Part shown: in pieces, positions 4,269-26,850 of the stretch
Layout of the letters: the number at the start of each line of letters is the position of its first letter
Numbering within the stretch: the stretch's first letter is position 1
Assembly: GCA_030949985.1 (NCBI GenBank)
Contig: JAUZRX010000021.1
Location: 124,001-188,000 of the forward strand
Length of the DNA: 64,000 bases
Direction: 5' to 3'
Source: Acidobacteriota bacterium
GTDB taxonomy: Bacteria > Acidobacteriota > Polarisedimenticolia > J045
The notes under the pieces: model-generated
Seen by the model: the letters and a program-made list of their open reading frames with translations, nothing else
What the model was told of the DNA's origin: nothing
Database searches by the model: none
Translations under genes and position numbers: made by a program

Positions 4269-5024
4269 CTACTTCCGCTTGATGATCGCCCTTGCAGCGC
4301 AGGCCGCTCCGAAGCCGTTGTCGATGTTGACGACGGTCAGCCCCTCCGCGCAGGAAGTGAGCATACCCATCAGGGCGGTCATGCCGCCCTGGGCCACGCC
4401 GTAGCCGACGCTGGTCGGAACGCCGATCACCGGAGCGTCCACCAGCCCCGCCACCACGGAGGGCAGAGCCCCCTCCATCCCGGCCACCACGATGACCACC
4501 TTCGCGCGCCGCAGAACCTCGAGATGCTCGAGCAGGCGATGGAGCCCAGCGACCCCCACGTCGTAGATGCGCTCTACGTCCAGGGAAAACACGGCCGCCG
4601 TGACCGCCGCCTCTTCGGCCACGGGCAAGTCCGCCGTCCCCGCGCTGACGATGGTCAGGCCCTTGACCTTGCGGCGCCCCCTGCCTGGCGAAAGCCAGGA
4701 AAAAGTCCTGGAAAGCGGATCGTACCTCCCCCTCGGAAAGCGCTCGGCGAGCATCTTCCCCGGGCCGGGAAGCAGGCGGGTCACCAACACCGTCGCTCCC
4801 TTGTCGAAGAGGTGTTCGACGATCTCCAGGATCTGGTCGGTGGTCTTCCCCTCCCCCAGGATCACCTCGGGAATCCCCCGCCGGCTGGGCCGCTGGTGAT
4901 CGATGCGGGCCGAAGAGAGCTGTGCAGTCCCCAGGGTGGACAGGCGCTCGACCGCCTGGGCCACACCTGTTTTCCCGGAACGGACTTCCCGCAGCAGCTT
5001 GGCAATCTCCTGACGATCCAGCAT
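4269..5024 (-). CDS. larB: LarB-type nickel-pincer cofactor biosynthesis protein
   Basis: LarB carboxylates the pyridinium ring of nicotinic acid adenine dinucleotide and hydrolyses the phosphoanhydride, the first step to the nickel-pincer nucleotide of lactate racemase and related LarA enzymes. The C-terminal half is PurE-like (SAGTADLPVAEEA, then GMEGALPSVVAGL and GVPTSVGYG). The frame is open further upstream, but I place the start at the ATG 5022-5024 because a GGGAGG site precedes it and the upstream residues look non-coding; this gives 251 residues, the normal size. larC, larE and larA are not in the window, so the gene is orphaned locally. It is monocistronic and divergent from the HU gene. 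Confidence 0.88.
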   Translation of the reverse strand: MLDRQEIAKLLREVRSGKTGVAQAVERLSTLGTAQLSSARIDHQRPSRRGIPEVILGEGKTTDQILEIVEHLFDKGATVLVTRLLPGPGKMLAERFPRGRYDPLSRTFSWLSPGRGRRKVKGLTIVSAGTADLPVAEEAAVTAAVFSLDVERIYDVGVAGLHRLLEHLEVLRRAKVVIVVAGMEGALPSVVAGLVDAPVIGVPTSVGYGVAQGGMTALMGMLTSCAEGLTVVNIDNGFGAACAARAIIKRK

Positions 5025-5259
5025 CTGGCCTCCCGCCCCTGACGGGGGTCGCGCCGGCGGCGTCCACGTCACCTGGCGTCGCTGCCGATTATCCCCTACC
5101 CGGACGCCCGCGCCCCCGGGAAATCCCCCCACGGCGCGGAGATCGGGCGAGACGACCGTTGACCGCCGCGCTCGAGACATGATAGACAAGAGCGGCAGAA
5201 AACGGTGTGTCTGGGTCCAACAACCGGCGGATCTCTGCCCGCCACATCAAGGAGCGGCC

Positions 5260-5541
5260 ATGAACAAAGCGGAACTGATCGACAAGATCGCAGCAGATGC
5301 GGGGATCACCAAGGCAGCGGCGGCACGGGCCATCGAATCGATGATCGATGGCGTGGCACGCTCCCTGAAGGCCGGTGAGCGCACGACGCTGGTGGGCTTT
5401 GGCACCTTCACCGTCAGCCAGCGCAAGGGACGCGTCGGCCGGAATCCCCAGACGGGCGCCGCCATCGAAATCAAGCCGAAGCAGGTCGTCAAGTTCCGCG
5501 CAGGCAAGGAACTCGAGGATATCCTCAACCCCGATTCCTGA
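5260..5541 (+). CDS. HU/IHF-family nucleoid protein
   Basis: DNA-bending architectural protein of 93 residues. It has the standard HU layout: N-terminal helices (MNKAELIDKIAADAG), the GFGTF strand turn, the RKGRVGRNPQTGAAIEI beta-arm with the intercalating Pro region, and a C-terminal helix ending FRAGKEL. The frame extends upstream, but the ATG at 5260 has an AAGGAG site six bases before it and matches the family N-terminus. It is followed by a hairpin terminator, so it is probably transcribed alone. Confidence 0.95.
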   Translation: MNKAELIDKIAADAGITKAAAARAIESMIDGVARSLKAGERTTLVGFGTFTVSQRKGRVGRNPQTGAAIEIKPKQVVKFRAGKELEDILNPDS

Positions 5542-5557
5542 TCCAGCGTCGGCGCCC

Positions 5558-5578
5558 GGCTGTCACGGTCCGACAGCC
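5558..5578 (+). terminator. probable terminator after the HU gene
   Basis: A 7-bp inverted repeat (5558-5564 with 5572-5578) with a 7-base loop, followed by a pyrimidine-rich TCCTCTCT run. It starts 16 bases after the HU stop codon. The tail is weaker than a classical T tract. Confidence 0.5.
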
Positions 5579-5760
5579 TCCTCTCTGCGGCCGCTCCACC
5601 GTCCGCAGGCCGGGGGGGCATCCATCCCTGGAGCCCGATGGGCACCGGGCCCGGGGGTGTTGCTGTCAAGTCCGGTGGATTCCGTACCGATACGGGGTGT
5701 TGCCGGCTCCGCCCGCGCCGCTCGCGGGCGGGTTTCCGGCGGCCGGAGCCCTGGCTGCCC

Positions 5761-6609
5761 ATGTCGACCGCCGTTTCGGAAGCGCCGATCACCCTCGACA
5801 CAAAGCTTTCGCCCGGAGACTACGAGAGGATCCGGGCCCTGATCCACAAACACGCCGGTATCGCCATGCCGGATGGCAAGGAAGCCCTCGTCGCCTCGCG
5901 CCTGAGGCAGCGGCTGAAGGCCTGCGGCATCTCGACGATTCCCGAGTACCGCGACTTCGTGACCCGGAATCCCGAGAGTCATGAACTGCGGGCGATGATC
6001 GATGTGCTGACCACCAACAAGACCAGCTTTTTCCGAGAGGAAGCTCATTTCCGCTACCTGGCGGAGGTGGTCGTCCCCGAGGCCCAGGCCTCGCGCCGAC
6101 TGCGCCTGTGGTCTGCCGGCTGTTCGACGGGACAGGAGCCCTACACCACGGTGATTTGCCTGGCGGAAAGCCTGAGGGACTTCCAGCAGTGGGACATTCG
6201 CATCCTCGCCACCGACATCTCCGACCGCGTCCTCGCCGAAGCCAAGGCTGGTCGCTACCCGCGGCACACGCTCGATGGACTCGATGAGAGCCTGGTGCGC
6301 AAGTACTTCCAGGCAGAAAAGAATCAAGGGGAGTGGGTCTACGTCGCCAACCCGATCCTGCGCAAGCCCGTGAGTTTCGCCCGCCTCAACTTGATGGCTC
6401 GCTGGCCTATGAAAGGCCCTTTCGACGCCATCTTCTGCCGCAACGTGATGATCTATTTCGACAAACCGACCCAGGAGCACCTGGTCAACCGCTTTCACGA
6501 CCTGCTCCGACCCGGTGGGCACCTGCTGATCGGCCACTCCGAAAGCCTGACCGGCCTTGACCATCCCTACGAGTCCATTGCGCCCGCCACCTACCGGCGG
6601 AAAGCCTGA
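5761..6609 (+). CDS. cheR: chemotaxis methyl-accepting receptor methyltransferase CheR
   Basis: SAM-dependent methylation of glutamate side chains on chemoreceptors, in the cytoplasm at the receptor array. The 282-residue product has the short helical N-terminal domain followed by the catalytic domain: TNKTSFFRE, the SAM loop WSAGCSTGQEPYT, ILATDIS, and the C-terminal FCRNVMIYFDKPTQ block with LIGHSESL. The ATG at 5761 is chosen because it matches the family start; only a distant GGAG precedes it. It heads a compact operon with cheD, a CheY-like receiver, a CheX-like gene and an EAL protein. No cheA, cheW or receptor is present here, so the core signalling genes must lie elsewhere. Confidence 0.95.
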   Translation: MSTAVSEAPITLDTKLSPGDYERIRALIHKHAGIAMPDGKEALVASRLRQRLKACGISTIPEYRDFVTRNPESHELRAMIDVLTTNKTSFFREEAHFRYLAEVVVPEAQASRRLRLWSAGCSTGQEPYTTVICLAESLRDFQQWDIRILATDISDRVLAEAKAGRYPRHTLDGLDESLVRKYFQAEKNQGEWVYVANPILRKPVSFARLNLMARWPMKGPFDAIFCRNVMIYFDKPTQEHLVNRFHDLLRPGGHLLIGHSESLTGLDHPYESIAPATYRRKA

Positions 6610-11151: not shown

Positions 11152-14100
11152 TTGAGACGCCTTTTTCCCCTTATCTTCGCCGCCCTTCTTCTCGCCGCCC
11201 CCTCAACCCCCGCCGCAAGACGTCAGAACAGCGGTGAGAAGAAAACCGCGCCCCAGAAAGACGTTCTTTCGGCGGCCACCTTCTCGGGCCTCGAACTCCG
11301 CGCCATCGGCCCGGCGCTGACTTCCGGCCGCATCGTCGATATCGCGGTGGACCCGGCGGACGCGAGCCGCTACTTCGTCGCCGCCGCCTCGGGAGGCGTC
11401 TGGAAGACAGAGAATGCGGGAACGACGTTCGTGCCGATCTTCGATGATCAGGCTTCCTACTCGATCGGCTGCCTGGCGATCGCTCCAGGACATCCCCTGG
11501 TGGTCTGGGTCGGCACGGGAGAAAACAACAGCCAACGCAGCGTTGGTTACGGCGACGGCGTCTACAAGAGCGTCGACGGGGGAAAGACCTTCAGGCGCAT
11601 GGGTCTCGAAAACTCGGAACATATCGGCAAGATCCTGATCGATCCCAGAAATCCTCAACGCGTGCTCGTCGCCGCCCAGGGGCCGCTGTGGAAAGCCGGC
11701 GGCGACCGCGGCCTGTACCTCACCGAAGACGGTGGGGAAAGCTGGAAGAAAATCCTCGATATCAGCCCGGACACCGGCGTCAGTGACCTGGTGGCCGATC
11801 CGCGGGATTTCGATGTGCTCTACGCCGCCGCCTATCAACGCCGCCGGCGTACCTGGACGTTGATCAACGGAGGACCCGAGTCGGCGATCTACAAGTCGAC
11901 CGACGGCGGTGCAAGCTGGCACCGCCTCGAGAGTGGATTGCCGGGCAGCGACCTGGGACGCATCGGCCTGGCCATCGCGCCCAGCCGGCCGGACAGAATA
12001 TATGCCATTGTCGAAGCCGCGGGAGAGGAAGCCGGCTTCTACCGCTCCGACGACGGTGGAAACAACTGGGTCAAGCGGTCGAGTTACATCTCCTCGTCGC
12101 CCCAGTACTACCAGGAGATCGTCGTCGATCCGCTCGATCCCGATCGAGTCTACTCGCTCGACACCTGGATGATGGTGAGCGAGGACGGCGGCCTGAACTT
12201 CCGCAAGGTCGGCGAGCGAGCCAAGCACGTCGACAACCACGCCTTGTGGATCGACCCGGAAGACACACGGCACATGATCGCCGGCTGCGACGGTGGAATC
12301 TACGAAACCTTCGACCGGGGCGAAACCTGGAGTTTCAAGGCCAACCTTCCCATCACCCAGTTCTACAAGGTGACTCCGGACAACGACTTTCCTTTTTACA
12401 ACGTCTACGGAGGCACCCAGGACAACGCCACCCTGGGCGGCCCCTCGCGCAACACCAGCCGCAACGGGATCACCAACGCGGATTGGTTCGTCACGGTTTT
12501 CGGCGATGGCTTCAAGACGGTCGTCGACCCCCGGGACCCCGCCATCGTCTACTCCCAGTGGCAGTACGGCGGGCTGGTGCGATTCGACAAGCGCAGCGGA
12601 GAGATCGTCGACATCCAACCTCAGCCGGGCAAGGACGAGGCGCCGCTGCGCTGGAACTGGAGTTCGGCCCTGATACTCAGCCCACACTCTTCAACGCGAC
12701 TCTACTTTGGCGCCAACCGGCTGTTTCGCAGTGATGACCGGGGCGACAACTGGGAGCCCGTCAGCCCCGATCTGACCCGGCAGATCGATCGCAACCAGCT
12801 CGAAATCATGGGGCGCGTTTGGTCCGTCGACGCCGTAGCCAAGAACATGTCCACATCGTTCTATGGGACGATCGTCTCGCTGAGTGAATCGCCCCTGGTC
12901 GAGGGGCTGATCTACGCCGGGACCGACGACGGGCTGGTGCAGGTCACCGAAGACGGGGGCGGCACGTGGCGCAGGGTGGAGTCTGTCCCGGGCTGCCCCC
13001 CGATGTCCTATGTCAGCCGGCTCGAGGCCAGCGTCCACGATCCGAATACGATCTTTGCCGCCTTCGACAATCACAAGGCGGGCGACTTCCGGCCCTACCT
13101 CTTCAGAAGCGACGATCGCGGTCGCACCTGGCGGTCCATTGCGGGTGACCTTCCGGAACGGGGTTCGGTCTACGCCGTGGTCCAGGATCACCAGAAGCCC
13201 GACCTGCTCTTTGCGGGCACCGAGTTCGGGCTCTTCTTCACCCTGGACGGTGGGTCCCACTGGATCCCGCTGACCGGCGGCTTTCCCACCATTGCCGTGC
13301 GCGACCTGGAGATTCAGCGTCGAGAGAACGACCTGGTGGTAGGCACCTTCGGGCGCGGCATCTACATCCTCGATGACTACAGCCCCCTGCGGCATGTCGA
13401 TCGTGAGAGTCTCGAGCACTCCAGGATGCTCTTCCCGGTCAGACAGGCCTGGATGTTCATGCCCGAGGCGCGGCTCGGTCTCGACGGCAAGGCATTCCAG
13501 GGCGATAGCTATTTCACGGCTCCCAATCCGCCGTTCGGTGCGGTGTTCACCTACTACCTGCCCGAAAAAATCATGACGCGGAAAGAACGCCGCCAGCAGA
13601 AAGAGAAAGAGTGGATCAAGGCCGGCAAGACGCCTCCCTACCCTTCCTGGGAGGAGTTGCGTGCGGAAGCCCGCGAAAAGCCGCCGCGGGTCATTCTCAC
13701 GGTCAAAGACAGCGAGGGCGGGGTGGTCCGCCGCCTCGAAGGACCGATTGACGAGGGCTTCCACAGGGTCGCCTGGGATCTGCGCTACCCCCCCGCCGAT
13801 CCGGTACGCTTGACGGAACCCGAGCGAGGTCCGTTCAGCGGAGATCGCCTGGGACCGATGGTCCTTCCAGGAGCCTACGTGGTGGAAATGGCCGTCGAGA
13901 GGGACGGCGAGCTTCAACCGACCGGCATCGCCCAGCCCTTCGCGGCCCTCCCCCTGGGCACCGCGACCCTGGCCGCGTCCGACCGTGCCGCCTTACTGGC
14001 CTTCCAGCAGCAGACCGCCGACCTCCAGCGGGTGGTCCTGGGAACGCTGAGATGCCTCGACGAGGCCACGGAGCGCCTCGACTACCTGGCCAAGGCCCGT

Positions 14101-14475
14101 TTCCTGGCGCCCGGCGCCGAGGCGGAGATCGATCAGCGGATCACGGACCTGCGTGCCGACCTGGCGGACCTGCGAGAGAAACTGGCCGGAGATCCCGTAC
14201 TACGCCGGCACCAGGAGCCGACGCCGCCAAGTATCCTCGAGCGGGTCCAGCGCATCGTCGACGGCCACTGGACCGCAACCGCTGCGCCCACCGGCACCCA
14301 TCTCCGGAACTATCGCATTGCCCAGGAAGAGTTCACGGAACTCTACCACCGTATCGAGGAAGCCCTGACGATACGACTGAAAAAGATCGAAGACGACCTC
14401 GAAGCCGCCGGCGCCCCCTGGACCCCTGGAAGGCTCCCCCGGCTTCCCGATCCGGAGACCGGGAAGTCGTGGTGA
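11152..14475 (+). CDS. large secreted BNR/sortilin-type beta-propeller protein
   Basis: An 1107-residue exported protein. A signal peptide (about 1-22, hydrophobic core [14 protein letters not shown] ending at an Ala-rich site) precedes many BNR/Asp-box repeats such as [32 protein letters not shown] and SDDRGRTW, spaced through residues 60-770, as in VPS10/sortilin-like glycosyl-hydrolase-fold propellers. The last 330 residues include a charged segment and a helical region. The start is TTG with GGAGG seven bases upstream. Such proteins are common in soil and marine bacteria and are annotated as glycosyl hydrolases without proven activity. It has its own transcription unit. Confidence 0.9.
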
Positions 14476-14491
14476 GGGTCGCCGGGGGAGG

Positions 14492-15160
14492 TCAGTTCTG
14501 ACCGCGGTAACCGATCCGGTCGAAAGGGTTGACGATCGAGGAGGCGATGTTCTTCAGGTGGGCCGAGATGCGCTTGAGGTAGCGAGCGTAGAGGGTGGTG
14601 GCGACAGCCTCCTTGCCCGGCAGAGTGGGATCGTCTTCTTCGAGAAGACGGTTGACGATCTCATCGGAGCGCCGGGCGATCCACCAGTGCTCGCTCATCA
14701 CCTCGCGCGCCTTGTCCTCGTCGGAGTCGGGCAAGGCGGCGATCAGCAGACTGAACATGGTGCGCACCGTGGTCTCGATCTTGCGCATGTCCGGTTCACA
14801 GGGGCCGCAGGTCAATCGCTCCGGATGATGCAACGCCAGCTCCACGATGTTCTTCGTGTAGTCACCGATGCGCTCGATGTCGATGACGATGCTGACGAGC
14901 ACCAGGGCTGCATGGATGTCCGGCTCACCACCCACGGCCAGGTGCGTCATGACCTTGCGACGCACCTCGCGCTCGTAGGCGTTGATCATCTGGTCCTTGG
15001 CGTAGATGTCGATCTCGAGTCGGGCGTCGTCGCTTTCCCTCAGTGAGCGCACAGCCGCCTCGAACATCTCCTGGTCCTCGGTAAGCATCTCGCGGGAGCG
15101 CTCGAAGGCCTGGTTGAGTTGACTCTCCCGGCCAAGGAGTTCGATCAGTTTCTTGAACAT
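14492..15160 (-). CDS. PhoU-domain protein
   Basis: A 222-residue helical protein with two PhoU-type three-helix repeats (DIYAKDQMINAYEREVRRKV and a second near 150-210). PhoU proteins bind metals and regulate phosphate transporters or their sensor kinases in the cytoplasm. It starts four bases after the upstream Na/Pi symporter, with a good GAGGTG site, so the two are one operon and the protein is probably a regulator of that symporter. There is no pstSCAB or phoBR nearby. Confidence 0.9.
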   Translation of the reverse strand: MFKKLIELLGRESQLNQAFERSREMLTEDQEMFEAAVRSLRESDDARLEIDIYAKDQMINAYEREVRRKVMTHLAVGGEPDIHAALVLVSIVIDIERIGDYTKNIVELALHHPERLTCGPCEPDMRKIETTVRTMFSLLIAALPDSDEDKAREVMSEHWWIARRSDEIVNRLLEEDDPTLPGKEAVATTLYARYLKRISAHLKNIASSIVNPFDRIGYRGQN

Positions 15161-15164
15161 CAGA

Positions 15165-16304
15165 TCACCTCAAGATCCACAGCAAGGCAAGGGGTAGCAG
15201 GTAGAAGAACGTGATGATGTAGACCACGGGAATCCAGCGATTTCGACGGGCGAGCCACGAAAAGCGTCGCGCCATCTTGATCGGCAACTCTCTGACGGCG
15301 GGGACGGGCCAGATGATGGCAATCCCCAGCACGTTGAAGAACAGGTGCGAGAAAGCGACCGTCAAGGCCGCGGGACTGCCCACCGCGAGCGCCGCGAGCA
15401 GAGCTGTGAAAGTGGTGCCGACATTGGCTCCCAAGGTATAGGGGTAGATCTGGCGCAAACTGAGAATACCGGCACCGGCCAACGGCACGACCAGGGAAGT
15501 GGTGATGCTGCTGGATTGCACGACCGTCGTCAGCAGGCAGCCGAAGGCCATGGCCCGCAGAGCGCTGCGGAAAATGACATGGTCGAAGAAGGCCTCGACC
15601 CTCCGCAGGACCAGTGAGCGCAGGATGACCACGAGATAACGCAGGGCAAAGAACATCAACCCCAAGGAGACGAGAACCAGCAACCAGGGGCGATGCCCGA
15701 GCAGTTCCACGAGACCGGCGACGGCGGGATGGGTCAGCGCCTTGAGTGGACTGCTGAACGTCAGCCCGCCCACCTGCTCGAAAGCCCTCGTGAGGAAAAC
15801 CGCGAAGCCCTCGAGGAAATTCGTCATCCACTGCAGGGGAAAGAGCACAAGAACAGCGAAGATATTGAAGAAGTCGTGCACCACCGAGGCTGAGAAGGCT
15901 CGGTAGAACTCCCGCCCACGGGCCACGTGCCCCAGGCTGACCAGGGTATTGGTCACGGAAGTGCCGATGTTGGCCCCCATGATCACCGGGATCGCCGTGT
16001 GCAAAGGCATGACGCCGCCTCCCACCAGGGCCACGACGACAGAGGTCGTGGTGGAGGAGGACTGGACCAGGGTGGTGGCGAGAATACCGGTGAACAGGCC
16101 CACCAACGGGAAGGCGGCCGAGGCGATCATGTCCTCGACGAATCCACTGCCGAAGAGCTTGAAGCCTTTGCCCAGCAGCGAGATGCTCACGAGGAAGGAG
16201 TAGAGCAGGATGAGCAGCCCTCCCAGGCGCAGGGAGACGCTGATCCAGGAAGGCATCCTCTCTTGGGGGGGGCCGGCTGATGCCGCCGGCCTCGAATCAG
16301 CCAT
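15165..16304 (-). CDS. Na+/phosphate symporter (NptA/PNaS family)
   Basis: An integral membrane protein of 379 residues with about nine hydrophobic segments arranged as an inverted repeat. The duplicated signature is visible twice: QSSSTTTSVVVALVG with GANIGTSVTNT, and QSSSITTSLVVPLAG with GANVGTTFTAL. In the family these form the Na+ and phosphate sites. It is followed at once by the PhoU-domain gene. The start ATG has a GGAGAG site. The 163-base gap upstream holds no gene; a -10-like TAAGAT is present without a convincing -35. Confidence 0.93.
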   Translation of the reverse strand: MADSRPAASAGPPQERMPSWISVSLRLGGLLILLYSFLVSISLLGKGFKLFGSGFVEDMIASAAFPLVGLFTGILATTLVQSSSTTTSVVVALVGGGVMPLHTAIPVIMGANIGTSVTNTLVSLGHVARGREFYRAFSASVVHDFFNIFAVLVLFPLQWMTNFLEGFAVFLTRAFEQVGGLTFSSPLKALTHPAVAGLVELLGHRPWLLVLVSLGLMFFALRYLVVILRSLVLRRVEAFFDHVIFRSALRAMAFGCLLTTVVQSSSITTSLVVPLAGAGILSLRQIYPYTLGANVGTTFTALLAALAVGSPAALTVAFSHLFFNVLGIAIIWPVPAVRELPIKMARRFSWLARRNRWIPVVYIITFFYLLPLALLWILR

Positions 16305-16467: not shown

Positions 16468-17502
16468 TCAGACCGGCTGCGGCGCCTCCGACGAGAACGA
16501 TCCGGCCCCCTCGGCCTGAGCCAGTTCCTCCTCGAGGCGGCCGAGCAACTGGCGAAGTCGCTCGTAGGCCTGCAGACCCGCAGGACGCTCGAGCAGCCGA
16601 TCGAGTTCCTGGCAGCGCCCGCAGAGGTCCCTGAGCAGGGACGCCAGCTCCACCGGATCCGGCGGGTGATCCCGGTCCGCCATGCGGTCGAGGGCTTCGG
16701 CGACCACCTGGCGATCATGTTGGATCAGTTCCTCGCGCTGGTTGATCTGGAGTAGCAGTTCACTCAGGCCGTAGAGGTCCTGCCAGATCTCCATGCCCCG
16801 GGCGGGGTCGCGGGGTCGCTGCTCTTCCCAGCGCCAGATCCGGCGCTGGAGTCGGAGGAAGTTCTGACGGTCCGCGAGCCTGAGGGAGGGGCCCGACTCC
16901 GATTCGAGCACCGCCGCGATGGCCTGCGCTCCGTCCAGCAGTCTTTCCACGATGGAGGTGGCTTCAGGGGGGCCGTCGGCGGCGATGCGACGTCGAAAAT
17001 AAGCGAAAAGTCGGCGAAGATCGATGGCCTGCCGCGACTCGGTCAGGGCCGACAGTTCGGATCGCTGCCCCAGGCGTCGACAAAGGAGCTGCTCGGTGGC
17101 GATACCCGCCTTGATGAACGAGCCCAGGGCATGGTTGCAGTGGGAGAGCAGCGCCCAGCCCGCGTGGTGATCGCCGCTGCTGGCCAGTTGACTGGCCAGG
17201 TGCTGGAGTTCCATCTGCACGACGAAGAGGTGATCCGCCACCGCGTGGGCCGACACCGGACCGAGTTTCTCGACCTGCTCGGCACTCTCCTCGGCGGCAC
17301 GCGCGTCGAAGAGTTCCAGCAGGGAAGCCAAGACGCCGCCTCCGGACTCGAGGATCCGCCGCGCCTGGGCCGCGTGGGCGACGAAGTGGCTCTCCGCATC
17401 CTCGCCCATCTCCCGCACTTCCGCCTCGAGGGCCACCCGGACGAGACTTCTCAAGGCGCCGATCAGGGCAGGCAGTCGTAGCTCGAAATCTCCAGCAGGC
17501 AT
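16468..17502 (-). CDS. helical protein of unknown function
   Basis: A 344-residue soluble, almost entirely helical protein rich in Glu, Leu, Arg and Ala, without signal peptide or membrane segment and without a motif I recognise. The frame is open further upstream, but the ATG at 17500-17502 has a GGTGGAAAG site and begins a plausible N-terminus. It is divergent from the ulosonate-type operon and could share regulatory DNA with it. Consistent high-GC third positions and length support a real gene. No function is proposed. Confidence 0.7.
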   Translation of the reverse strand: MPAGDFELRLPALIGALRSLVRVALEAEVREMGEDAESHFVAHAAQARRILESGGGVLASLLELFDARAAEESAEQVEKLGPVSAHAVADHLFVVQMELQHLASQLASSGDHHAGWALLSHCNHALGSFIKAGIATEQLLCRRLGQRSELSALTESRQAIDLRRLFAYFRRRIAADGPPEATSIVERLLDGAQAIAAVLESESGPSLRLADRQNFLRLQRRIWRWEEQRPRDPARGMEIWQDLYGLSELLLQINQREELIQHDRQVVAEALDRMADRDHPPDPVELASLLRDLCGRCQELDRLLERPAGLQAYERLRQLLGRLEEELAQAEGAGSFSSEAPQPV

Positions 17503-17653
17503 GCTCTTTCCACCTTCCCCGGGGGAGGGAATCCAGTGGCCTTCAGAAGCCCCTTCCCAATGCATAAGTCCCGTTCACTTGCCGGTCCACCTCCTTTTCG
17601 CTCCCGCAAGCGCCTGTTTCGTCTCGATCAGGGTTGCCCGAGATCTTCCGCGC

Positions 17654-17731: not shown

Positions 17732-18745
17732 ATGCAGATCGCGGGATCGGTACTGGCCACGGAACGCTCGGACCCCGAACAGGTGTTCGGCCTGGTCCGG
17801 CAACTGGAACAAGCCGCGGTGGAGATCATTCACTACGACCACATGGACCGGGCGCCGCTGGAACTTTCGACGGTTTCCCGGCTGCGGCGCATGACCGGAC
17901 TGCCCCTCGAGGTTCACCTGGTCACCCGCCGGCCGGAACAGTGCCTGCCCCTGCTTGCCGAAGCCGGGGTCGACTACTGCGCGGTGCAGCTCGAGACCGC
18001 CGAGCATTTCGACCTGCGGCGCCTGCGAGCCTTTCCCGGCCGGCTGGGCCTGGCGGTGCAGACAACAACCCCGATTCGTCGAATCGAACCCCTGATCCAC
18101 GGCGTGGACTACGTGCTGCTGATGACCACCACGCCCGGCCGCTCCGGTGGCCGCTTCGACCCCGCGGTCTTCGACAGGATTCGCGACTTTCGCCTGCGCC
18201 ACCCGAGGATGCCCCTGCATGTCGATGGCGGCGTGGACGCCGATGTGTCCTCGGCGCTGCGCGTTCTGGGCGTGGACGTGATCGTCTCCGGCTCCTTTCT
18301 CTTCCGCGGGCAGAGCGTGATCCACCGCAAGATGGACCTGCTCCGGGCCAATGCAGACCTGGGTGTGGAATTCTTCATGATGCCCGAAGCGGCCGTGCCT
18401 CTCGTCGATCGCCACGCTCCCGTCGATGAAGTCGTTCGCAGCATGGCCCGGGGCCGGGTCGGAGCGACCCTCGTTCTGAATTCCGAGGGACTGCTGGTGG
18501 GCCTGATTACCGACGGCGATCTGCGAGAAGCCCTCCTCCGCCACTCTGGAGACCTCGACTCGCTGACCGCCTCGCAGATCATGAACCCACGACCGCTGAC
18601 CCTCGACCGTGGCCAGAGTTTGCGCCAGCTGGTGCGGGCCGTGGAGTCCTCCGGACGACCGATCCTCGTGGTCCCGGTCACCGAAACGGAAAGCCGGCGT
18701 TACGCAGGCTGCATTTCGCTGCATAATCTGCTCCGCCTTTTGTGA
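17732..18745 (+). CDS. ribulose-phosphate-3-epimerase-like domain fused to a CBS pair
   Basis: A 337-residue fusion. Residues 1-205 are an Rpe-type (beta/alpha)8 barrel with the family's acid/base and metal ligands kept: Ser6, His34, Asp36, His62 (EVHLV) and Asp165 (VDGGV), and the phosphate loop SGSFLF. MTTTPGRSGG replaces the usual NPGFGG loop, and Arg follows MD where Gly is normal, so the substrate may differ. Residues 225-337 are two CBS motifs (GLITDGDLREAL, ASQIMNPRPLT, then a C-terminal SLHNLLRLL) closely like the CBS pair of KdsD arabinose-5-phosphate isomerase. In the family the barrel epimerises pentulose 5-phosphates; the CBS pair would sense a nucleotide, possibly CMP- or CTP-derived feedback (inference). 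It heads the operon leading to a CMP-sugar-acid synthetase. Confidence 0.8.
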   Translation: MQIAGSVLATERSDPEQVFGLVRQLEQAAVEIIHYDHMDRAPLELSTVSRLRRMTGLPLEVHLVTRRPEQCLPLLAEAGVDYCAVQLETAEHFDLRRLRAFPGRLGLAVQTTTPIRRIEPLIHGVDYVLLMTTTPGRSGGRFDPAVFDRIRDFRLRHPRMPLHVDGGVDADVSSALRVLGVDVIVSGSFLFRGQSVIHRKMDLLRANADLGVEFFMMPEAAVPLVDRHAPVDEVVRSMARGRVGATLVLNSEGLLVGLITDGDLREALLRHSGDLDSLTASQIMNPRPLTLDRGQSLRQLVRAVESSGRPILVVPVTETESRRYAGCISLHNLLRLL

Positions 18746-18762
18746 GTGGATGTGGAGCACCG

Positions 18763-19758
18763 ATGATCCTGCAGTTGAAGGAAACCGTCTCTCCGGAACG
18801 GGCCGCCCGGCTCGCGCAACTCACCGATGGACAACTGGTGGTCTTCCGCGGCCGACGGCTGTTGATCTTCCCCTCCCAGGGTCCGGGCAGTCCTCTACCC
18901 GCCGACGAGGACCTGGGTGAGGTCATCGACTTCCACGAAGACTGGCCCCTGGCATCCCGCAAGGTGTGCCCCGAAAAAACGATCATCGAAATCGGCGGGG
19001 GCCTGCGCATCGGGGACGGTTCGACCCTCCTGATCGCCGGCCCCTGCGCCGCCGAATCGGAAGCTCAACTCCGCGCGTCGGCTTCCTTCCTGGTGGACCG
19101 CGGGATTCGCCTCTTCAGGGCCGGCTTGTTCAAGCCCCGTACATCGGCTTACAGCTTTCCAGGCCTGGAATTCGAAGGACTCGAAGTGCTCGCTTCGATC
19201 CGCAGGGAATTCGGCCTGAAGCTGATCACCGAGGTCTACGACACCTCCCATTTCGACGCCGTGGAGGAAATCGCAGACGTGATCCAGGTCGGCTCGAAAG
19301 CGATGTTCAACCTGGCGCTGCTACGTCGCTGCGGCCGCAGCTCGAAACCTGTCCTGCTCAAGCGTTTTTTTTCGGCTTCCACCCGGGAGTGGTTACAGGC
19401 GGCCGATGTCATTCTTGCGGCCGGGAACCCCAACGTGATCCTGGGCGAGCGGGGCATCCGCACCTTTGAACCCCGCAGCCGCTTCGTCTTCGACCTCAAT
19501 TCCGCGGTCTACATCCAGGAAAACAGCCACCTGCCCTTGCTGCTCGATCCATCCCACGCCATCGGCCGCGCTTCCGGGGTCGGCGCCCTGGCGCGAGCCG
19601 CCGCCGCCTTCGGCGCCGACGCGATCATGGTGGAGGTTCATCCGGCCGTCCAAGAGGCCCGCTGCGACCGGGCCCAGGCCCTGGACCACGCGACCTTCGC
19701 GGCTCTCCAGGACGAATTGATCACGATCTGCCGGGCGGTGGGCCGGGAGCTGAAGTGA
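18763..19758 (+). CDS. diverged DAHP/KDO8P-type 3-deoxy-ulosonate-phosphate synthase
   Basis: A 331-residue member of the PEP-condensing aldolase family. An N-terminal domain of about 80 residues resembles the ferredoxin-like regulatory domain of type I-beta DAHP synthases. The barrel shows IAGPCAAES, RAGLFKPRTSAYSFPG, LITEVYD, GNPNVILGERGIRTFEP, LLLDPSHAIGR and MVEVHP, so PEP and metal sites look intact. The acceptor side differs: the canonical GARN segment is GSKAMFN and the KRGM segment is KRFFSAS. I infer condensation of PEP with a phosphosugar other than erythrose 4-phosphate. The start is the ATG at 18763, with TGGAG before it, 17 bases after the Rpe-CBS stop. An ordinary DAHP synthase remains possible. 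Confidence 0.8.
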   Translation: MILQLKETVSPERAARLAQLTDGQLVVFRGRRLLIFPSQGPGSPLPADEDLGEVIDFHEDWPLASRKVCPEKTIIEIGGGLRIGDGSTLLIAGPCAAESEAQLRASASFLVDRGIRLFRAGLFKPRTSAYSFPGLEFEGLEVLASIRREFGLKLITEVYDTSHFDAVEEIADVIQVGSKAMFNLALLRRCGRSSKPVLLKRFFSASTREWLQAADVILAAGNPNVILGERGIRTFEPRSRFVFDLNSAVYIQENSHLPLLLDPSHAIGRASGVGALARAAAAFGADAIMVEVHPAVQEARCDRAQALDHATFAALQDELITICRAVGRELK

Positions 19759-19759
19759 G

Positions 19760-20494
19760 ATGAAATGGTCTCTCCCCCAGGTCGCCGGCGTCATACCGGC
19801 CAAGTCCTCCAGTCGAAGGGTGGAGGGCAAGAACAATCGGCTCCTGCTCGGTGTTCCACTCTTCCTGGTGGCCGCAGCCAACCTGGGCAAGGTCCTCGAA
19901 CCCTCCTCGATCTACGTCGACACCGACTCTCCGGAAATGGCCGCGCGGGCCCGGGCGGCCGGCTTTCGCGCGCTGTTGCGACCCGCCGAACTGGCCACCA
20001 ACGCGACGGACGGCAACGCGCTGCTGACCTGGGAAGCGTCCGCCATCGAGGCCGAAGTGCTCGTCCAGCACCTGCCACCGATGCCTTTCTGCCGCGAGGC
20101 GACACTGCGGAAGGGTATCGAGGCGGTACTCTCCGGCCGGGCGGACTCGGCTTTCGGTGCCTCTGACCAGGCGCTCTACCTCTGGCATCGCCAGCCCCTC
20201 AGGCCGCAATACGATCTCGAACACATCCCCAACAGCTTCACGCTCCCACGCCTGCTGGTGGAAGGGATGGGACTGTACGTCACCCGCCGGGATGTGATTC
20301 TCTCCCGCGGCACACGCGTCGGTGAGCGCCCCGAGATCCTCGAGCTGGATCGCTTCGAGCAAATCGACATCGACGAAGTCGAAGACCTGGAGCTGGCTCG
20401 CGCGGTGGCGACCGGGCTCGATCCCGATTCCGAGTACGTCAAGCACACCCACCGCCTGGCCGCCTTCTGCCAGCGCGCCGAGACAGCCCCATGA
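19760..20494 (+). CDS. CMP-ulosonate cytidylyltransferase-like protein (NeuA/KdsB type)
   Basis: A 244-residue nucleotidyltransferase. The N-terminal IPAKSSSRRVEGKNN is the CTP-binding signature of CMP-acylneuraminate synthetases, with the Arg and Lys of the family kept; SIYVDTDSP and LLRPAELA follow as in NeuA. The C-terminal ELDRFEQIDIDEVEDLELAR motif supplies the metal-binding Asp residues. CMP activation of a 2-keto-3-deoxy sugar acid is expected. The ATG is one base after the synthase stop, and its own stop overlaps the next ATG (ATGA), so translation is coupled. The sugar acid is not known. Confidence 0.85.
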   Translation: MKWSLPQVAGVIPAKSSSRRVEGKNNRLLLGVPLFLVAAANLGKVLEPSSIYVDTDSPEMAARARAAGFRALLRPAELATNATDGNALLTWEASAIEAEVLVQHLPPMPFCREATLRKGIEAVLSGRADSAFGASDQALYLWHRQPLRPQYDLEHIPNSFTLPRLLVEGMGLYVTRRDVILSRGTRVGERPEILELDRFEQIDIDEVEDLELARAVATGLDPDSEYVKHTHRLAAFCQRAETAP

Positions 20495-21114
20495 TCGATC
20501 CTTCGCGCTATTGCAGCGGCATCTTCTCGGACGTCCTCGATGAACTCGGCTATCGGCAGCAGGTGATCGACGGGCTGACGGCCAATCGCCCCGGCGCGCG
20601 TCTCTTCGGCCGCGCCCGCACCCTGCGGCTGGAGACGGTGGACACGACGGACGAGCGGATTCGCGTCGGCCTCGGCTTTCTCAATCGCCTCGGCGGCCGG
20701 GATGTCCTCGTCGTCGAGGGAAGCGACACGTTCGCCTACTTCGGCGAGCTGATGACCCGCCTCTCCCTACGCCAGGGCCTGGCCGGCGTGGTGATTGGAG
20801 GCCTGACCCGGGATGCGGCTTTCACACGCAACGCCGAGCTGCCGATCTTTGCCCGCGGCACCTCACCACGAGACATCAAGGGCCGAGGACGGGTGGCCGC
20901 CACGGAAGTCAAGGTCAGTATCTCCGGTGTCGGCGTCGTGCCCGGTGACTATCTCTTCGGGGACGACGACGGTCTCGTGGTCATCCCCCGCCAGGCGGAG
21001 GAAGAAGTTTTCCGGCGCGCCGCGGCCAAACTCGAAGACGAAGAACGTATCATCCGCTTGATCGATGGAGGAACGACCATCGAGAGCCTACTCGACCAGG
21101 TCCGGGAATTCTGA
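20491..21114 (+). CDS. RraA-family aldolase-like protein
   Basis: A 207-residue protein of the RraA / HMG-aldolase family. The family includes class II pyruvate or oxaloacetate-releasing aldolases and the RNase E inhibitor RraA. GELMTRLSLRQGLAGVVIGG and the TRDAAF motif with its Arg-Asp pair, plus VVPGDYLFGDDDGLVVIP, match the enzymatic branch, so metal-dependent C-C bond chemistry is plausible. It starts within the stop of the cytidylyltransferase (ATGA), which ties it to sugar-acid metabolism rather than RNA turnover. It could make or break a 2-keto acid intermediate, or trim a side product (inference). Confidence 0.82.
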   Translation: MIDPSRYCSGIFSDVLDELGYRQQVIDGLTANRPGARLFGRARTLRLETVDTTDERIRVGLGFLNRLGGRDVLVVEGSDTFAYFGELMTRLSLRQGLAGVVIGGLTRDAAFTRNAELPIFARGTSPRDIKGRGRVAATEVKVSISGVGVVPGDYLFGDDDGLVVIPRQAEEEVFRRAAAKLEDEERIIRLIDGGTTIESLLDQVREF

Positions 21115-21151: not shown

Positions 21152-22801
21152 ATGAAGCTCCATCCCCTGGCCGGCAAGCCGGTCCCGCCGGAGAACGTCA
21201 GCGACATTCCGCGCCTGGTCAGCACCTACTACGTTGCGCACCCCGATCCCGCCGAAGACACCCAGAAGGTGAGCTTCGGCACTTCCGGGCACCGGGGGTC
21301 GTCACTGCGTCGGAGTTTCAACGAAGACCATATTCTGGCCATTTGCAGGGCGATCTGCCTACACAGACAATCCCAGGGCATCGAGGGCCCCCTCTTCATC
21401 GGCAAGGACACCCACGCCCTGTCGGACCCCGCGCTGATCACCGCTGTCGAGGTCTTCGCGGCCCATGGCGTGGAAGTCGTCATCCAGGCCGGCGGGGGCG
21501 CTACACCGACCCCCGTGATCTCCCGGGCGATCTTGGTCCACAACCGCGACCCCCGGGCGGCGCGGGCCGATGGAGTCGTGATCACCCCCTCCCACAACCC
21601 ACCGGAAGACGGCGGCTTCAAGTACAACCCGCCCCATGGAGGTCCTGCCGAGGGCCGGATCACCGGCTGGATCCAGGACCAGGCCAACGCGACCCTCGAA
21701 GAGGGCGTCGCGGAGATCCCCCGCCTGTGCTGGGACAAGGCGCTGGGTTCTCCCCACGTGCACGAGCGTGACTTCATCGAGCCCTTCGTCGCCGACCTGC
21801 ACAAGGTCCTCGACATGGAAGCCATCGCCGCCTCCGGCGTACGCATCGGCGTCGACCCCATGGGAGGCGCCGGCAGAGAATTCTGGCCACGCATCGCCGA
21901 GCGTTACGGCCTGTCGCTCGAGGTGGTCAACCCACGCGTCGATCCGGCCTTCGCTTTCATGCGTATCGACCACGACGGCAAGATCCGCATGGACTGTTCG
22001 TCTCCCTATGCCATGGCTTCCCTGGTGGATCTGCGCGACCGGTTCGACATCGCTTTCGGTAACGACGCGGATGCCGACCGCCACGGCATCGTCACCCCGG
22101 GCACGGGCTTGATGAATCCCAACCACTATCTCTCCGTGGCGGTGGACTATCTGTTCCGGCACCGGGAACGATGGCCCCGCTCCGCCGCCGTGGGTAAGAC
22201 CCTGGTTTCCTCGAGCCTGATCGACAGGGTGGCAGCGGACCTGGGCCGACGCCTGGCCGAGGTTCCCGTGGGCTTCAAATGGTTCGTCAGCGGCCTGCTG
22301 AGCGGAGAATACGGCTTCGGCGGCGAGGAAAGCGCGGGTGCCAGTTTCCTCTGCCGCGACGGTTCGGTATGGACCACGGACAAGGACGGCCTGGCGGCCG
22401 GCCTGCTTGCCGCGGAAATCATCGCCGTCACGGGGGCCGATCCCGGCGAACACTACAAGCGCCTGACGAGCCGCTTTGGAGAACCCGTCTACGAAAGAAC
22501 GGATGCTCCGGCCACGCCGGCGCAGAAAAGGCGCCTGGCGGCCCTGAGGGCCCAGGACGTGGCGGCAGAGAGCCTGGCCGGCGAGAAGATCATCGCCCGC
22601 CTGACCCATTCACCCGAGGGTAAGACCCCGATCGGCGGGCTGAAAGTCGTCACCGAGAACGGCTGGTTTGCGGCGCGGCCTTCCGGTACGGAAGACATCT
22701 ACAAGATCTATGCCGAGTCGTTTCGGGGCCGGGACCATCTCGAGTGGATCCAGCGCGAAGCCCAGGAAATCGTCGGCAGGGTGATCGACATCGAGTCCTG
22801 A
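21152..22801 (+). CDS. pgm: phosphoglucomutase (alpha-D-glucose phosphate-specific)
   Basis: Interconverts glucose 6-phosphate and glucose 1-phosphate. At 549 residues it is the E. coli Pgm type rather than the shorter PMM/PGM type. Visible motifs: KVSFGTSGHRGSS, the phosphoserine loop TPSHNPPEDGGFKYNPPHGG, the metal loop GNDADADRHGIV, GGEESAGASF and the C-terminal phosphate-binding RPSGTEDIYKIY. The ATG at 21152 is preceded by GAGGCGAGAAG. It lies 37 bases after the RraA-like gene on the same strand and probably shares its transcript, supplying glucose 1-phosphate for nucleotide-sugar synthesis. Confidence 0.95.
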   Translation: MKLHPLAGKPVPPENVSDIPRLVSTYYVAHPDPAEDTQKVSFGTSGHRGSSLRRSFNEDHILAICRAICLHRQSQGIEGPLFIGKDTHALSDPALITAVEVFAAHGVEVVIQAGGGATPTPVISRAILVHNRDPRAARADGVVITPSHNPPEDGGFKYNPPHGGPAEGRITGWIQDQANATLEEGVAEIPRLCWDKALGSPHVHERDFIEPFVADLHKVLDMEAIAASGVRIGVDPMGGAGREFWPRIAERYGLSLEVVNPRVDPAFAFMRIDHDGKIRMDCSSPYAMASLVDLRDRFDIAFGNDADADRHGIVTPGTGLMNPNHYLSVAVDYLFRHRERWPRSAAVGKTLVSSSLIDRVAADLGRRLAEVPVGFKWFVSGLLSGEYGFGGEESAGASFLCRDGSVWTTDKDGLAAGLLAAEIIAVTGADPGEHYKRLTSRFGEPVYERTDAPATPAQKRRLAALRAQDVAAESLAGEKIIARLTHSPEGKTPIGGLKVVTENGWFAARPSGTEDIYKIYAESFRGRDHLEWIQREAQEIVGRVIDIES

Positions 22802-22855
22802 GCCGCCGCGATTCCAGTGGTCGGCAGCCCCCCTTTTGCGGTAGATTCAGCCGCC

Positions 22856-23392
22856 ATGCGACCGACCTTCCACCTCGACCTTCCCCTGGCCTGCGACGAG
22901 GTCATGCGTCGACTCGAGCTGAGCATCGCCCGCACGGACTGCCCCTGTCACGGCCGTTCGCTGGCGCGACATGCCGAGATCTGGGTCGATGACGCCCGGC
23001 GGAAGATCTGGTCTCCCTGGCTGAGCCTGACGATCGAAGCGCGAGAGGAGGGCTGCCATCTGCGGGGGCGCTTTTCCCCCAGTCCCAGCGTCTGGACCTT
23101 CTTCATGTTTCTCCATTTCTTCTTCGCCTTCCTGCTCTTCGTCGGCTCGCTCTACGGCTTCTCCCAGTGGACCCTCGGCCGCACCCCCTGGGCCCTGGGC
23201 GTCATCCCCGTCGCGACGGGTGGTATGGTGGGAGTCTACCTGGCCAGTCTCATCGGCCAGCGCCTGGGGGCGGAACAGATGGCGATGCTCCGCAAGATAG
23301 TCGATGACGCTCTCGGGCTGTCTCCCGCCGGCGACGCGGAAAGAGCCTGCCCGCCCCATCGAGCCCCGATCGGCGGATCCCCAGCGCGATGA
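22856..23392 (+). CDS. two-helix membrane protein of unknown function
   Basis: A 178-residue protein with a soluble N-terminal part of about 80 residues and two hydrophobic helices (FFMFLHFFFAFLLFVGSLYG and the segment ALGVIPVATGGMVGVYLASL). I do not recognise a family. The ATG at 22856 is chosen over a frame-internal upstream GTG because the upstream residues look non-coding. The stop overlaps the start of the hybrid kinase (ATGA), so the two are co-translated and the protein could be a membrane partner of that soluble kinase. Confidence 0.72.
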   Translation: MRPTFHLDLPLACDEVMRRLELSIARTDCPCHGRSLARHAEIWVDDARRKIWSPWLSLTIEAREEGCHLRGRFSPSPSVWTFFMFLHFFFAFLLFVGSLYGFSQWTLGRTPWALGVIPVATGGMVGVYLASLIGQRLGAEQMAMLRKIVDDALGLSPAGDAERACPPHRAPIGGSPAR

Positions 23393-25324: not shown

Positions 25325-25975
25325 TCAAGAGACGGCCAGCAGGGCCGCGACCTGATCGAGGTGGTCGACGATCCTGTCGGCCTCCCCGAGCAGATCCCGC
25401 GGCTGGGTACCGGTCAGAGCGATGCATGCCATGCCTGCGGCCCGTGCGGCCGCGATGCCCGCGTGGGTGTCCTCGATCACCACGCAACGGCCCGGTGCTC
25501 GGCCCAGCCGCGCGGCTGTCTCCAGATAGATCTCCGGATCGGGCTTCCCGCGCGCCACGTCGTCCCGGGTCAGCAGGGCTGCGAAATGACGTTCCAGGCG
25601 TCGTGGTCCGAGCACGGCCGCGAGCTGCCGCCGGTCGGACCCTGTGGCCAGCCCCAGGGGCACACCCTTCGCCGCGAGACGTTCGATCAGGGTCACGGCG
25701 CCGGCTCGATAGGGCACGCCCTCCCTGGCGAGTCGTTCCAGGTAAACCGCCCTTTTATCGGCGATGACAGCCTGCGGATCGTCCACGCTCACGCCGGTCG
25801 ACCGGGCGAAAGCGGCGACGGCGGCAGCCTCCCCCACCCCGTGCCAGGACGGGTCGTCGACGGTGATCTCCACCTGGTAGCGGCGCCGAAAGACTTCCCT
25901 GTAGGCCTGAAACTTCAGGGGTTCGGAATCGACGAGGACTCCGTCCATGTCGAAGATGACGGCCTGGGCGATCAT
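25325..25975 (-). CDS. HAD-superfamily subfamily IA phosphatase / beta-phosphoglucomutase-like
   Basis: A 216-residue HAD hydrolase. Motif I is FDMDGVLVDSE, motif II lies in LATGSDRR, the Lys is in GKPDPEIY and motif III/IV is VIEDTHAGIAAARAAGM. The sequence fits the beta-phosphoglucomutase / phosphoglycolate phosphatase group; the substrate cannot be read from sequence. Its ATG overlaps the stop of the preceding glycosyltransferase by four bases (ATGA on the minus strand), so it is the last gene of the asnB-glycosyltransferase operon. A sugar-phosphate phosphatase would fit the dephosphorylation step missing from the ulosonate-type operon, but this is only a suggestion. Confidence 0.85.
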   Translation of the reverse strand: MIAQAVIFDMDGVLVDSEPLKFQAYREVFRRRYQVEITVDDPSWHGVGEAAAVAAFARSTGVSVDDPQAVIADKRAVYLERLAREGVPYRAGAVTLIERLAAKGVPLGLATGSDRRQLAAVLGPRRLERHFAALLTRDDVARGKPDPEIYLETAARLGRAPGRCVVIEDTHAGIAAARAAGMACIALTGTQPRDLLGEADRIVDHLDQVAALLAVS

Positions 25976-26850
25976 TGCGGGAGGCGGGTCGTGGTACAGC
26001 CGGTCGAGAGAGCCGCTGTCGGCTCGTAGCTTCGGACGCGGCCCGCCCCGCTGTCGGTGCAGCGGCCCGCACCGTCGACGATCACATCGGGATCGACCAC
26101 CCCCAGCCATCGGCGGTGAAAGAGTTCGATATTCTCCTTCACCCGGCTGAAGCGCTCGGGACCACTCATCGACTCGTAGTGGATCGCCACGCTCCGGGGC
26201 TGGTAGACGTTGAGCCAGCCGGCCTGGCCGAATCGCAGGCAGAGATCCACGTCTTCATAGCCGTTCCAGAAGGCCTCGTCGAAGCCGGAGAGAGCCTCGA
26301 AAGCCGATCGACGCACCGCCAGGCATGCCGCCGAGAGGGCCTGGTACGTCCGCGCCTGGTTGGCCTCCGGCAGGTTGGCAGGCTGGCGGCAATAGACATG
26401 GACCCCTTGCAGCGGGTCGCCTCCCTCGATCCGGGCCAGCAGGACACCGGCATGCTGGATCGTACGATCGGGATAGAGCAGTCGCGCTCCCACGCTCGCC
26501 ACACGGTCGTCGCTTTCGAGCACCTCGATCAGTGGTTCGAGCCAGCCCCGGGAGATCTCCGTGTCGTTGTTCAGAAAGAGCAGGTGGCGACCGGTGGCGG
26601 CCTCCGCTCCCTGGTTGCAGGCCCGCGCGAAGCCGAGGTTCTCCTGGTTATGCAGGGCGACCAGCCGCAGGCGTTCACCGAACTCCGGCTCGAGGCTGGC
26701 TGCGGTGGCGTCCCGCGAAGCGTTGTCGACCACCACGACCTCCGCCTCGTCAACGGCCGGCAGCGCGTGGGCCAGCGATTCGAGGCAATGGCGGGTCAGG
26801 GACCAGCGGTTGAAAACGGGAATCACGATCGAGACGAGGGGCCGGGTCAT
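25972..26850 (-). CDS. GT2-family glycosyltransferase
   Basis: A 292-residue inverting GT-A glycosyltransferase. The N-terminal SIVIPVFNRWSLTRHCLES binds the nucleotide sugar, NLGFARACNQG and LFLNNDTEI (the DxD equivalent) follow, and SGFDEAFWNGYEDVDLCLR is the acceptor/catalytic block typical of rhamnosyltransferase-like GT2 enzymes. No membrane helices are visible. Translation is coupled on both sides by ATGA overlaps with the large multidomain transferase and with the HAD gene. It is likely to build a surface polysaccharide or glycan. Confidence 0.9.
   Translation of the reverse strand: MTRPLVSIVIPVFNRWSLTRHCLESLAHALPAVDEAEVVVVDNASRDATAASLEPEFGERLRLVALHNQENLGFARACNQGAEAATGRHLLFLNNDTEISRGWLEPLIEVLESDDRVASVGARLLYPDRTIQHAGVLLARIEGGDPLQGVHVYCRQPANLPEANQARTYQALSAACLAVRRSAFEALSGFDEAFWNGYEDVDLCLRFGQAGWLNVYQPRSVAIHYESMSGPERFSRVKENIELFHRRWLGVVDPDVIVDGAGRCTDSGAGRVRSYEPTAALSTGCTTTRLPQ

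Follow-up and report, generated by a model that had tools for sequence, protein, structure and literature searches.

A possible Kdo-type pathway, rebuilt in a four-gene operon of an Acidobacteriota genome, to a CMP-activated 3-deoxy-2-ulosonic acid distinct from Kdo

Gene order at the locus

The window, a 64,000-nucleotide stretch of an Acidobacteriota genome, carries four packed genes on its forward strand. The first (17732-18745, + strand) encodes an Rpe-family barrel fused to a CBS pair, hereafter Rpe-CBS, and its stop codon lies 17 bases before the ATG of a DAHP-synthase-type gene (18763-19758, +), for which an earlier GTG at 18742 is a possible alternative start. After a gap of 1 base there follows a NeuA/PseF-type cytidylyltransferase gene of what we term the CTP-RraA subfamily (19760-20494, +), which is joined by an ATGA overlap to an RraA-type gene of the metal-dependent aldolase family (20491-21114, +). 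The original prediction had described this arrangement, and all four open reading frames were found at the place and with the spacings it gave. Its family assignments also held, with matches in Pfam/NCBIfam to Ribul_P_3_epim plus CBS, DAHP_synth_1/TIGR01361, CTP_transf_3 and RraA-like. Third-position GC is 78-81% in each of the four genes, the same as in gyrA and gyrB.

Immediately downstream, 37 bases from the RraA gene, lies pgm (phosphoglucomutase; 21152-22801, +; TIGR01132, 863 bits), a probable operon neighbor serving general nucleotide-sugar supply. In a congener (G231), an 85% identical RraA copy stands ahead of pgm at the same site (dN 0.116, dS 0.91); the congener's contig breaks off within this RraA gene.

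Enzyme families and catalytic residues

Rpe-CBS consists of an Rpe-family barrel (residues 1-200; 106 bits to Ribul_P_3_epim in Pfam, which also reports the CBS match) and a CBS pair at about residues 212-337. All four metal ligands of Rpe are intact (H34, D36, H62 and D165), the FVPN loop of Rpe is deleted, and the score against the Rpe equivalog TIGR01163 is 97 bits, under the cut-off of 212.6; a standard Rpe is encoded elsewhere in the genome, on C23. The CBS pair is closest within the genome to that of KdsD (41%), and its closest structure in the PDB is likewise the CBS pair of KdsD (4o9k). KdsD joins such a pair to a SIS isomerase domain, whereas Rpe-CBS joins it to an Rpe catalytic domain. 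We propose that Rpe-CBS is the first, end-product-regulated enzyme of a pathway and supplies its aldose phosphate acceptor, the CBS pair probably being the end-product sensor. Among 193 genomes of the G366 class the fusion was not found, with plain Rpe matches only, and viral contigs held no relatives of it. A single-sequence structure model of Rpe-CBS was too poor (pLDDT 49) and was left out.

The synthase scores 186 bits against DAHP_synth_1 and 288 bits against the type I-beta DAHP synthase model TIGR01361 (cut-off 267.75). It keeps C102, R126, the KPRTS loop (K131-PRTS135), K207, R237, H272, E298 and D309, and the conservative R186K is the sole change among its metal and PEP ligands. With the Bacillus/Thermotoga type of these enzymes it has in common the family model, the four metal ligands and the KPRTS loop, and its N-terminal part resembles their ferredoxin-like domain; it differs from them in R186K, in its long branch and in its operon context. 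Against the KdsA model TIGR01362 it reaches 89 bits (cut-off 314), its loop reads KPRTS and not KANRS/T, and in the tree it joins DAHP synthases against KdsA with support of 100/100. Its PseI score is 16 bits against a cut-off of 340, and a NeuB route was dropped for the operon.

An ordinary DAHP synthase isozyme, with neighbors that are unrelated or belong to aromatic metabolism, would pass TIGR01361 and group with DAHP synthases as this protein does. We consider that explanation highly improbable. The original prediction had accepted that it would fall if this were the sole DAHP synthase of the genome, but two ordinary DAHP synthases with higher scores (400 and 341 bits) are encoded elsewhere. 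The housekeeping reading was dropped; by score, the operon synthase does not rank as the genome's main shikimate enzyme. The length of its branch, its packing between the genes for Rpe-CBS and a CMP-sugar synthetase, and the likeness of the whole operon to the Kdo modules described below also speak against an isozyme. We propose instead that it is a PEP-condensing ulosonate-phosphate synthase.

The cytidylyltransferase matches CTP_transf_3 with 33 bits in Pfam, and TIGR00466, the KdsB model, is absent from its matches. By both sequence and fold its best match in the PDB is the CMP-Kdn synthetase 9t4z (Foldseek E 2.5e-15; mean pLDDT of the model, 77). It shares its fold and catalytic motifs with the CMP-sialic, Kdn and pseudaminic acid synthetases (NeuA/PseF), but is only 24% identical in the fold match and belongs to a separate subfamily tied to RraA. 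In Desulfobacterota, Bacteroidota, Alphaproteobacteria and other Acidobacteriota a cytidylyltransferase and an RraA domain form one fused protein (loci L060, L061, L063, L064, L088 and L089), and the operon enzyme joins these fusions in the tree with support of 86/89. Our literature search found no paper that joins RraA with a cytidylyltransferase. Among the 41 genomes of its own class the only match was the source genome (G000) itself, and neither 162 genomes of another class nor phages yielded a relative; on plasmids there were relatives at 25-33% only, and the best of them lay in a block of CTP, IMPase and NeuB genes. We propose that the operon protein is a CTP-dependent, NeuA/PseF-type enzyme of the CTP-RraA subfamily, with predicted activity on a 3-deoxy-ulosonic acid.

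The last protein (RraA-like, 98 bits in Pfam) has the fold of the RraA/HMG-CHA aldolase family and its D/E-X20-R-D metal-catalytic motif. The canonical D-X20-R-D reads E-X20-R-D here, and E also takes the place of the first D in L060 and L064. What sets it apart from these aldolases is its tie to a cytidylyltransferase, and not to aromatic catabolism or RNase E.

Kdo-type modules in other phyla and related genes in this genome

Equivalog-level KdsA adjoins the CTP-RraA fusion at four loci (L060, L061, L063 and L064), and at the first three of these so does KdsD with CBS domains. In L060, from a member of the Desulfobacteraceae, the order is KdsD, KdsA, CTP-RraA and capsule-type transferase. 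The window has this order too, Rpe-CBS taking the position of KdsD and a KPRTS-type DAHP synthase that of KdsA. Compared with the CMP-Kdo pathway (KdsD, KdsA, KdsC and KdsB), the operon has the same order of steps, a CBS-regulated first enzyme, a PEP-condensing synthase and CMP activation; it has, however, an Rpe barrel and not a SIS isomerase, a DAHP synthase and not KdsA, a NeuA-type and not a KdsB-type activator, an added RraA and no KdsC. The original prediction called for a search for the same four-gene set in other genomes, and this brought up no second Rpe + DAHP-synthase module; the other CTP-RraA loci with a visible synthase use KdsA/KdsD.

These neighborhoods also bear on whether the cytidylyltransferase could activate something other than a 3-deoxy-ulosonic acid, such as the product of RraA in a secondary pathway. 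Relatives in G385, G238 and G248 sit in a different block, of cyclase, dehydrogenase and SDR genes without a PEP synthase, and the L088 and L089 fusions have no KdsA nearby. Set against this, the closest folds are CMP-ulosonic acid synthetases and four of the fused relatives adjoin KdsA, and we judge a different substrate to be quite unlikely.

Elsewhere in the genome we found a complete kdsB-pyrG-kdsA-kdsD-kdsC operon, with KdsB and KdsC on contig 58, and a neuB/pseI-type cluster. The earlier claim that the standard kds and neuB genes are absent thus applies within the 64-kb window and not to the genome. Given this complete Kdo operon and the two other DAHP synthases, we conclude that the four genes are an extra, dedicated route to another product.

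The operon itself lacks a phosphatase, as had been predicted. The HAD hydrolase then put forward as its source is a real gene (beta-PGM-like; 25325-26110, - strand; TIGR02009, 124 bits, below the cut-off of 153), but it has no direct link to the operon and is one candidate only. The HAD domain of a 1216-aa protein of L060 was also considered as the missing phosphatase and rejected, as the region matches the capsule polymerase Bcs3.

A KpsC/S-like transferase had likewise been placed nearby. The gene in question, with its near end 15 kb from the operon, encodes a putative capsule-type glycosyltransferase with a C-terminal extension (36363-38618, - strand; the start at 38618 was set by comparison with a congener, and the frame is open to 38822). 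It matches PF05159 with 23 bits (cut-off 20) and has the HP motif in common with the beta-Kdo transferases KpsC, KpsS and WbbB. QXXXD is the invariant nucleophile motif of the KpsC/KpsS beta-Kdo transferases; the window protein reads QFFGY there, and the 1216-aa protein of L060 reads QFSNY, so that the window protein is not a canonical beta-Kdo transferase. It is 30% identical over 425 aa (E 6e-54) to the product of the gene that follows KdsD-KdsA-CTP-RraA in L060, and among 396 genomes of the phylum it was found only in this genus. We regard it as a candidate user of the CMP-sugar.

Proposed pathway and product

Known CMP-ulosonic acid pathways lead to C8 (Kdo) or C9 sugars (sialic, Kdn, legionaminic and pseudaminic acids). 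On balance we favor the reading that the operon encodes a Kdo-type pathway assembled anew from other enzymes, which makes a CMP-activated, non-Kdo 3-deoxy-2-ulosonic acid, most likely C7. The C7 product is suggested because the synthase has the KPRTS loop. In the route that we infer, with substrates, products and stereochemistry all predicted, the Rpe-family enzyme would provide the acceptor aldose phosphate under the control of its CBS pair, which is of KdsD type and would sense the CMP-sugar end product, and the DAHP-synthase paralogue would join PEP to the acceptor, giving a 3-deoxy-heptulosonate 7-phosphate. An enzyme from outside the operon, KdsC from contig 58 or the HAD hydrolase at 25.3 kb, might remove the phosphate. 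RraA would take the free 4-hydroxy-2-oxo acid as its substrate, plausible roles being a retro-aldol/aldol change at C4 or proofreading, and the cytidylyltransferase would use CTP to form the CMP-activated acid. The sugar could then be placed onto an acceptor surface polysaccharide by a transferase, for which the capsule-type protein at 36.4-38.6 kb is a candidate. The shorter acidic sugar would probably be used at the cell surface, alongside the normal Kdo genes.

Of the self-contained route from a pentose phosphate to a CMP-sugar acid that was originally predicted, the dedicated CMP-3-deoxy-ulosonic acid route is strongly supported by its parallel with the KdsD-KdsA-(CTP-RraA) modules. The obligatory pentose start is not, given the tetrose-phosphate loop KPRTS, nor does the route appear self-contained, as no phosphatase was identified in it. 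The operon could still make a C8 sugar, either Kdo or a Kdo isomer, if the synthase had come to use a pentose phosphate provided by way of the Rpe-type enzyme. All near CTP-RraA relatives with a visible synthase adjoin the eight-carbon enzymes KdsA/KdsD, a pentose start suits an Rpe, and some KPRTS-type DAHP synthases accept pentose phosphates. The loop is nonetheless of the DAHP type and not KANRTS, a complete Kdo operon is present elsewhere in the genome, and an aldose is not the product of an Rpe, and we hold a C8 product to be unlikely.

The last point also weighs against the C7 reading that we prefer, as Rpe-type epimerases yield ketoses and condensation with PEP requires an aldose. One tentative and rather doubtful way for Rpe-CBS to serve a C7 route would be to invert C2 of erythrose 4-phosphate, an epimerization that gives D-threose 4-phosphate and that we liken to the Ru5P/Xu5P reaction on a substrate lacking the C1 hydroxymethyl group; with PEP, the synthase would then form 3-deoxy-D-lyxo-heptulosonate 7-phosphate. 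If so, 3-deoxy-D-lyxo-heptulosonate would match Kdo in configuration at C4, C5 and C6 but be one carbon shorter.

We know of no earlier route to a CMP-activated 3-deoxy-heptulosonic acid, and this would be the first. Our literature searches found no bacterial biosynthesis of heptulosaric or heptulosonic acid, and no biosynthetic enzyme named for 3-deoxy-D-lyxo-heptulosaric acid (Dha), a sugar of plant RG-II whose parent acid is 3-deoxy-D-lyxo-heptulosonic acid. A C7 route drawn from Rpe and DAHP-synthase stock would, if true, bring a further class of sugar to the surface chemistry of bacteria and offer a model for the synthesis of the plant acid. Whatever the product, the CTP-RraA fusion recurs beside KdsA/KdsD, which points to an unrecognized step in Kdo-type metabolism in several phyla.

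The four-gene operon and its genome

The interval 17732-21114 is occupied by four plus-strand ORFs with gaps of 17 bases and 1 base followed by an ATGA overlap, which bears out the four-gene unit and spacings of the original prediction. Their Pfam families are, in order, Rpe with a CBS pair (Rpe-CBS), DAHP_synth_1, CTP_transf_3 and RraA-like, and in third-position GC they equal the gyrA and gyrB genes of the window. A phosphoglucomutase gene (pgm) lies 37 bases downstream. The two genes flanking the operon and pgm (16468-17565, minus strand, and 22817-23392, plus strand) lack any Pfam match.

The synthase scored 288 bits against the DAHP synthase model TIGR01361 (cut-off 268) and only 89 bits against the KdsA model (cut-off 314). 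Phylogenetic analysis joined it to the DAHP synthases, apart from KdsA, with support of 100/100 on a long branch (1.56). In Thermotoga numbering, C102, R126, K131-P-R-T-S135, K207, R237, H272, E298 and D309 are kept, and the sole changed active-site position among those checked is R186, now lysine. KPRTS is the erythrose-4-phosphate (E4P) loop of DAHP synthases, whereas KdsA proteins carry KANRTS.

The prediction that standard kds and neu genes are missing holds within the window but not genome-wide (3.7 Mb, 133 contigs): contig 58 carries KdsB, CTP synthase, KdsA, KdsD and KdsC together, so the operon is no substitute for kdsA/kdsB, and contig 49 carries a PseI/NeuB-type synthase with a cytidylyltransferase. 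Nor is the window synthase the genome's only DAHP synthase, as ordinary ones occur on contigs 51 and 58 (400 and 341 bits with TIGR01361). Contig 37 has a diverged, more distant DAHP-synthase-like gene (36820-37563; loci L004 and L113; 211 bits, below cut-off), and contig 23 a standard Rpe. No RraA paralogue was found in the genome. Because complete Kdo genes and other DAHP synthases lie elsewhere, we conclude that the operon is an additional route beside Kdo synthesis and not its replacement.

A rare cytidylyltransferase and its RraA fusions

The window cytidylyltransferase is rare. None of the available genomes from its own genus and family gave a match; with E below 1e-25 as the limit, the sole match among 396 phylum genomes was G366, plus G433 and G498 from the class of G366. 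A non-exhaustive scan of 84,980 species genomes, which used a two-sequence alignment and two short peptide patterns as query, returned five close homologues, in a Desulfobacteraceae genome (L060), a Flavobacteriales genome (L061), G366 (L062), Erythrobacter (L063) and Parvularcula (L064). All absences reported here are valid for the genomes searched. Fusions of the enzyme with an RraA domain from the window's subfamily (CTP-RraA) occur in L060 (9977-11299), L061 (2900-3876), L063 (9998-11308), L064 (9998-11308), L088 of G498 (4813-6108) and L089 of G433 (4317-5612), and in L062 the contig ends within the cytidylyltransferase gene. The window protein clusters with the fused proteins (86/89) and pairs with that of L060 (85/86), its exact position being unsure because the branch is long (1.99). 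The best structural matches of its predicted model (pLDDT 77, with residues 138-168 and the C-terminus unreliable) are CMP-Kdn and CMP-sialic acid synthetases.

An equivalog-rank KdsA adjoins or lies near CTP-RraA in four of the six fusions (L060, L061, L063 and L064), and KdsD lies near it in the first three of these. The L060 order is KdsD, KdsA, CTP-RraA and a 1216-residue protein (11601-15251) with a capsule-type transferase domain and a stretch resembling the capsule polymerase Bcs3 (PDB 8a0c), all within an ABC-transporter capsule locus; a KdsB-like gene and KpsC/KpsS-type proteins belong to it as well. Since that locus has its own KdsB-like gene, the fused protein probably works on a derivative of Kdo or on a second CMP-acid. 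The window operon keeps the order of this Kdo-type module, except that Rpe-CBS replaces KdsD and the DAHP-type synthase replaces KdsA.

The product of the window gene at 36.4 kb, whose match to PF05159 is weak yet passes the cut-off, shares 30% identity across 425 residues with the protein encoded after the L060 module, and the gene is confined to the window's genus in the phylum sample searched. Beta-Kdo transferases contain QXXXD with a nucleophile Asp (PMC10148158), whereas the same place reads QFFGY in the window protein and QFSNY in the L060 protein. Lacking this Asp, the window protein is a candidate CMP-sugar user that stands outside the characterised beta-Kdo transferases.

Rpe-CBS and RraA

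Rpe-CBS retains the four metal ligands and phosphate-binding glycines, and has lost the FVPN loop along with several positions conserved in 21 other Rpe proteins. The nearest CBS pair within the genome is that of KdsD (41% identity, 57 bits; next CBS protein, 20 bits), and the nearest in the PDB is the KdsD pair 4o9k. 4o9k was reportedly solved with CMP-Kdo; if so, the pair would be an end-product sensor.

RraA keeps its metal/catalytic motif as E-X20-R-D, with the same E form in two fusions and D in the remaining ones. A congener, G231, has an 85% identical RraA preceding pgm at the same site; its contig stops within RraA, leaving the other three operon genes beyond view. Between the two genomes RraA (dN 0.116, dS 0.91) is under evolutionary constraint, like pgm (dN 0.133, dS 0.91). 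RraA was not found around pgm in five other family members, where some stretches are short contigs. HMG/CHA aldolases belonging to the RraA family cleave 4-hydroxy-2-oxo acids with formation of pyruvate enolate (PMC5065237). As 3-deoxy-2-ulosonic acids in their free form are compounds of this kind, we propose that RraA would act on one at C3-C4.

Proposed product and other cytidylyltransferase blocks

Because the operon parallels KdsD-KdsA-CTP-RraA, its product is most likely a CMP-3-deoxy-ulosonic acid. A C7 acid, favoured because the synthase loop is DAHP-type, has about an even chance, and a C8 acid would be improbable. Carbohydrate chemistry suggests one speculative and rather unlikely route, in which the Rpe enzyme would use E4P in place of Ru5P to yield threose 4-phosphate, and condensation with PEP would then give 3-deoxy-D-lyxo-heptulosonate 7-phosphate, which is the same as Kdo at C4-C6. 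The proposal has weak points: the aldose-forming step is missing if Rpe works as a normal epimerase, the operon contains no phosphatase, and the window is the one instance of the complete Rpe and DAHP-type module among the genomes searched.

Two other kinds of gene block were observed. On plasmids of Enterobacter roggenkampii and E. coli (L058:8001-10911 and L059:8004-10914), polysaccharide-export loci bordered by insertion sequences hold a block of three genes, for a NeuA-like cytidylyltransferase, a protein of the inositol-monophosphatase family and a NeuB-family synthase of 514 aa; this block is a further ulosonic acid module, with a phosphatase type of its own. In a further set, which lacks a PEP synthase and recurs in unrelated genera, a NeuA-like cytidylyltransferase has as neighbours an SDR, a 2-hydroxyacid dehydrogenase and a cyclase resembling kynurenine formamidase, all named by eye from their sequences (L049:5256-9452 in G385; L054:5163-9057 in G248; L052:1499-3126 in G334, where the dehydrogenase is the only one of these neighbours in view).
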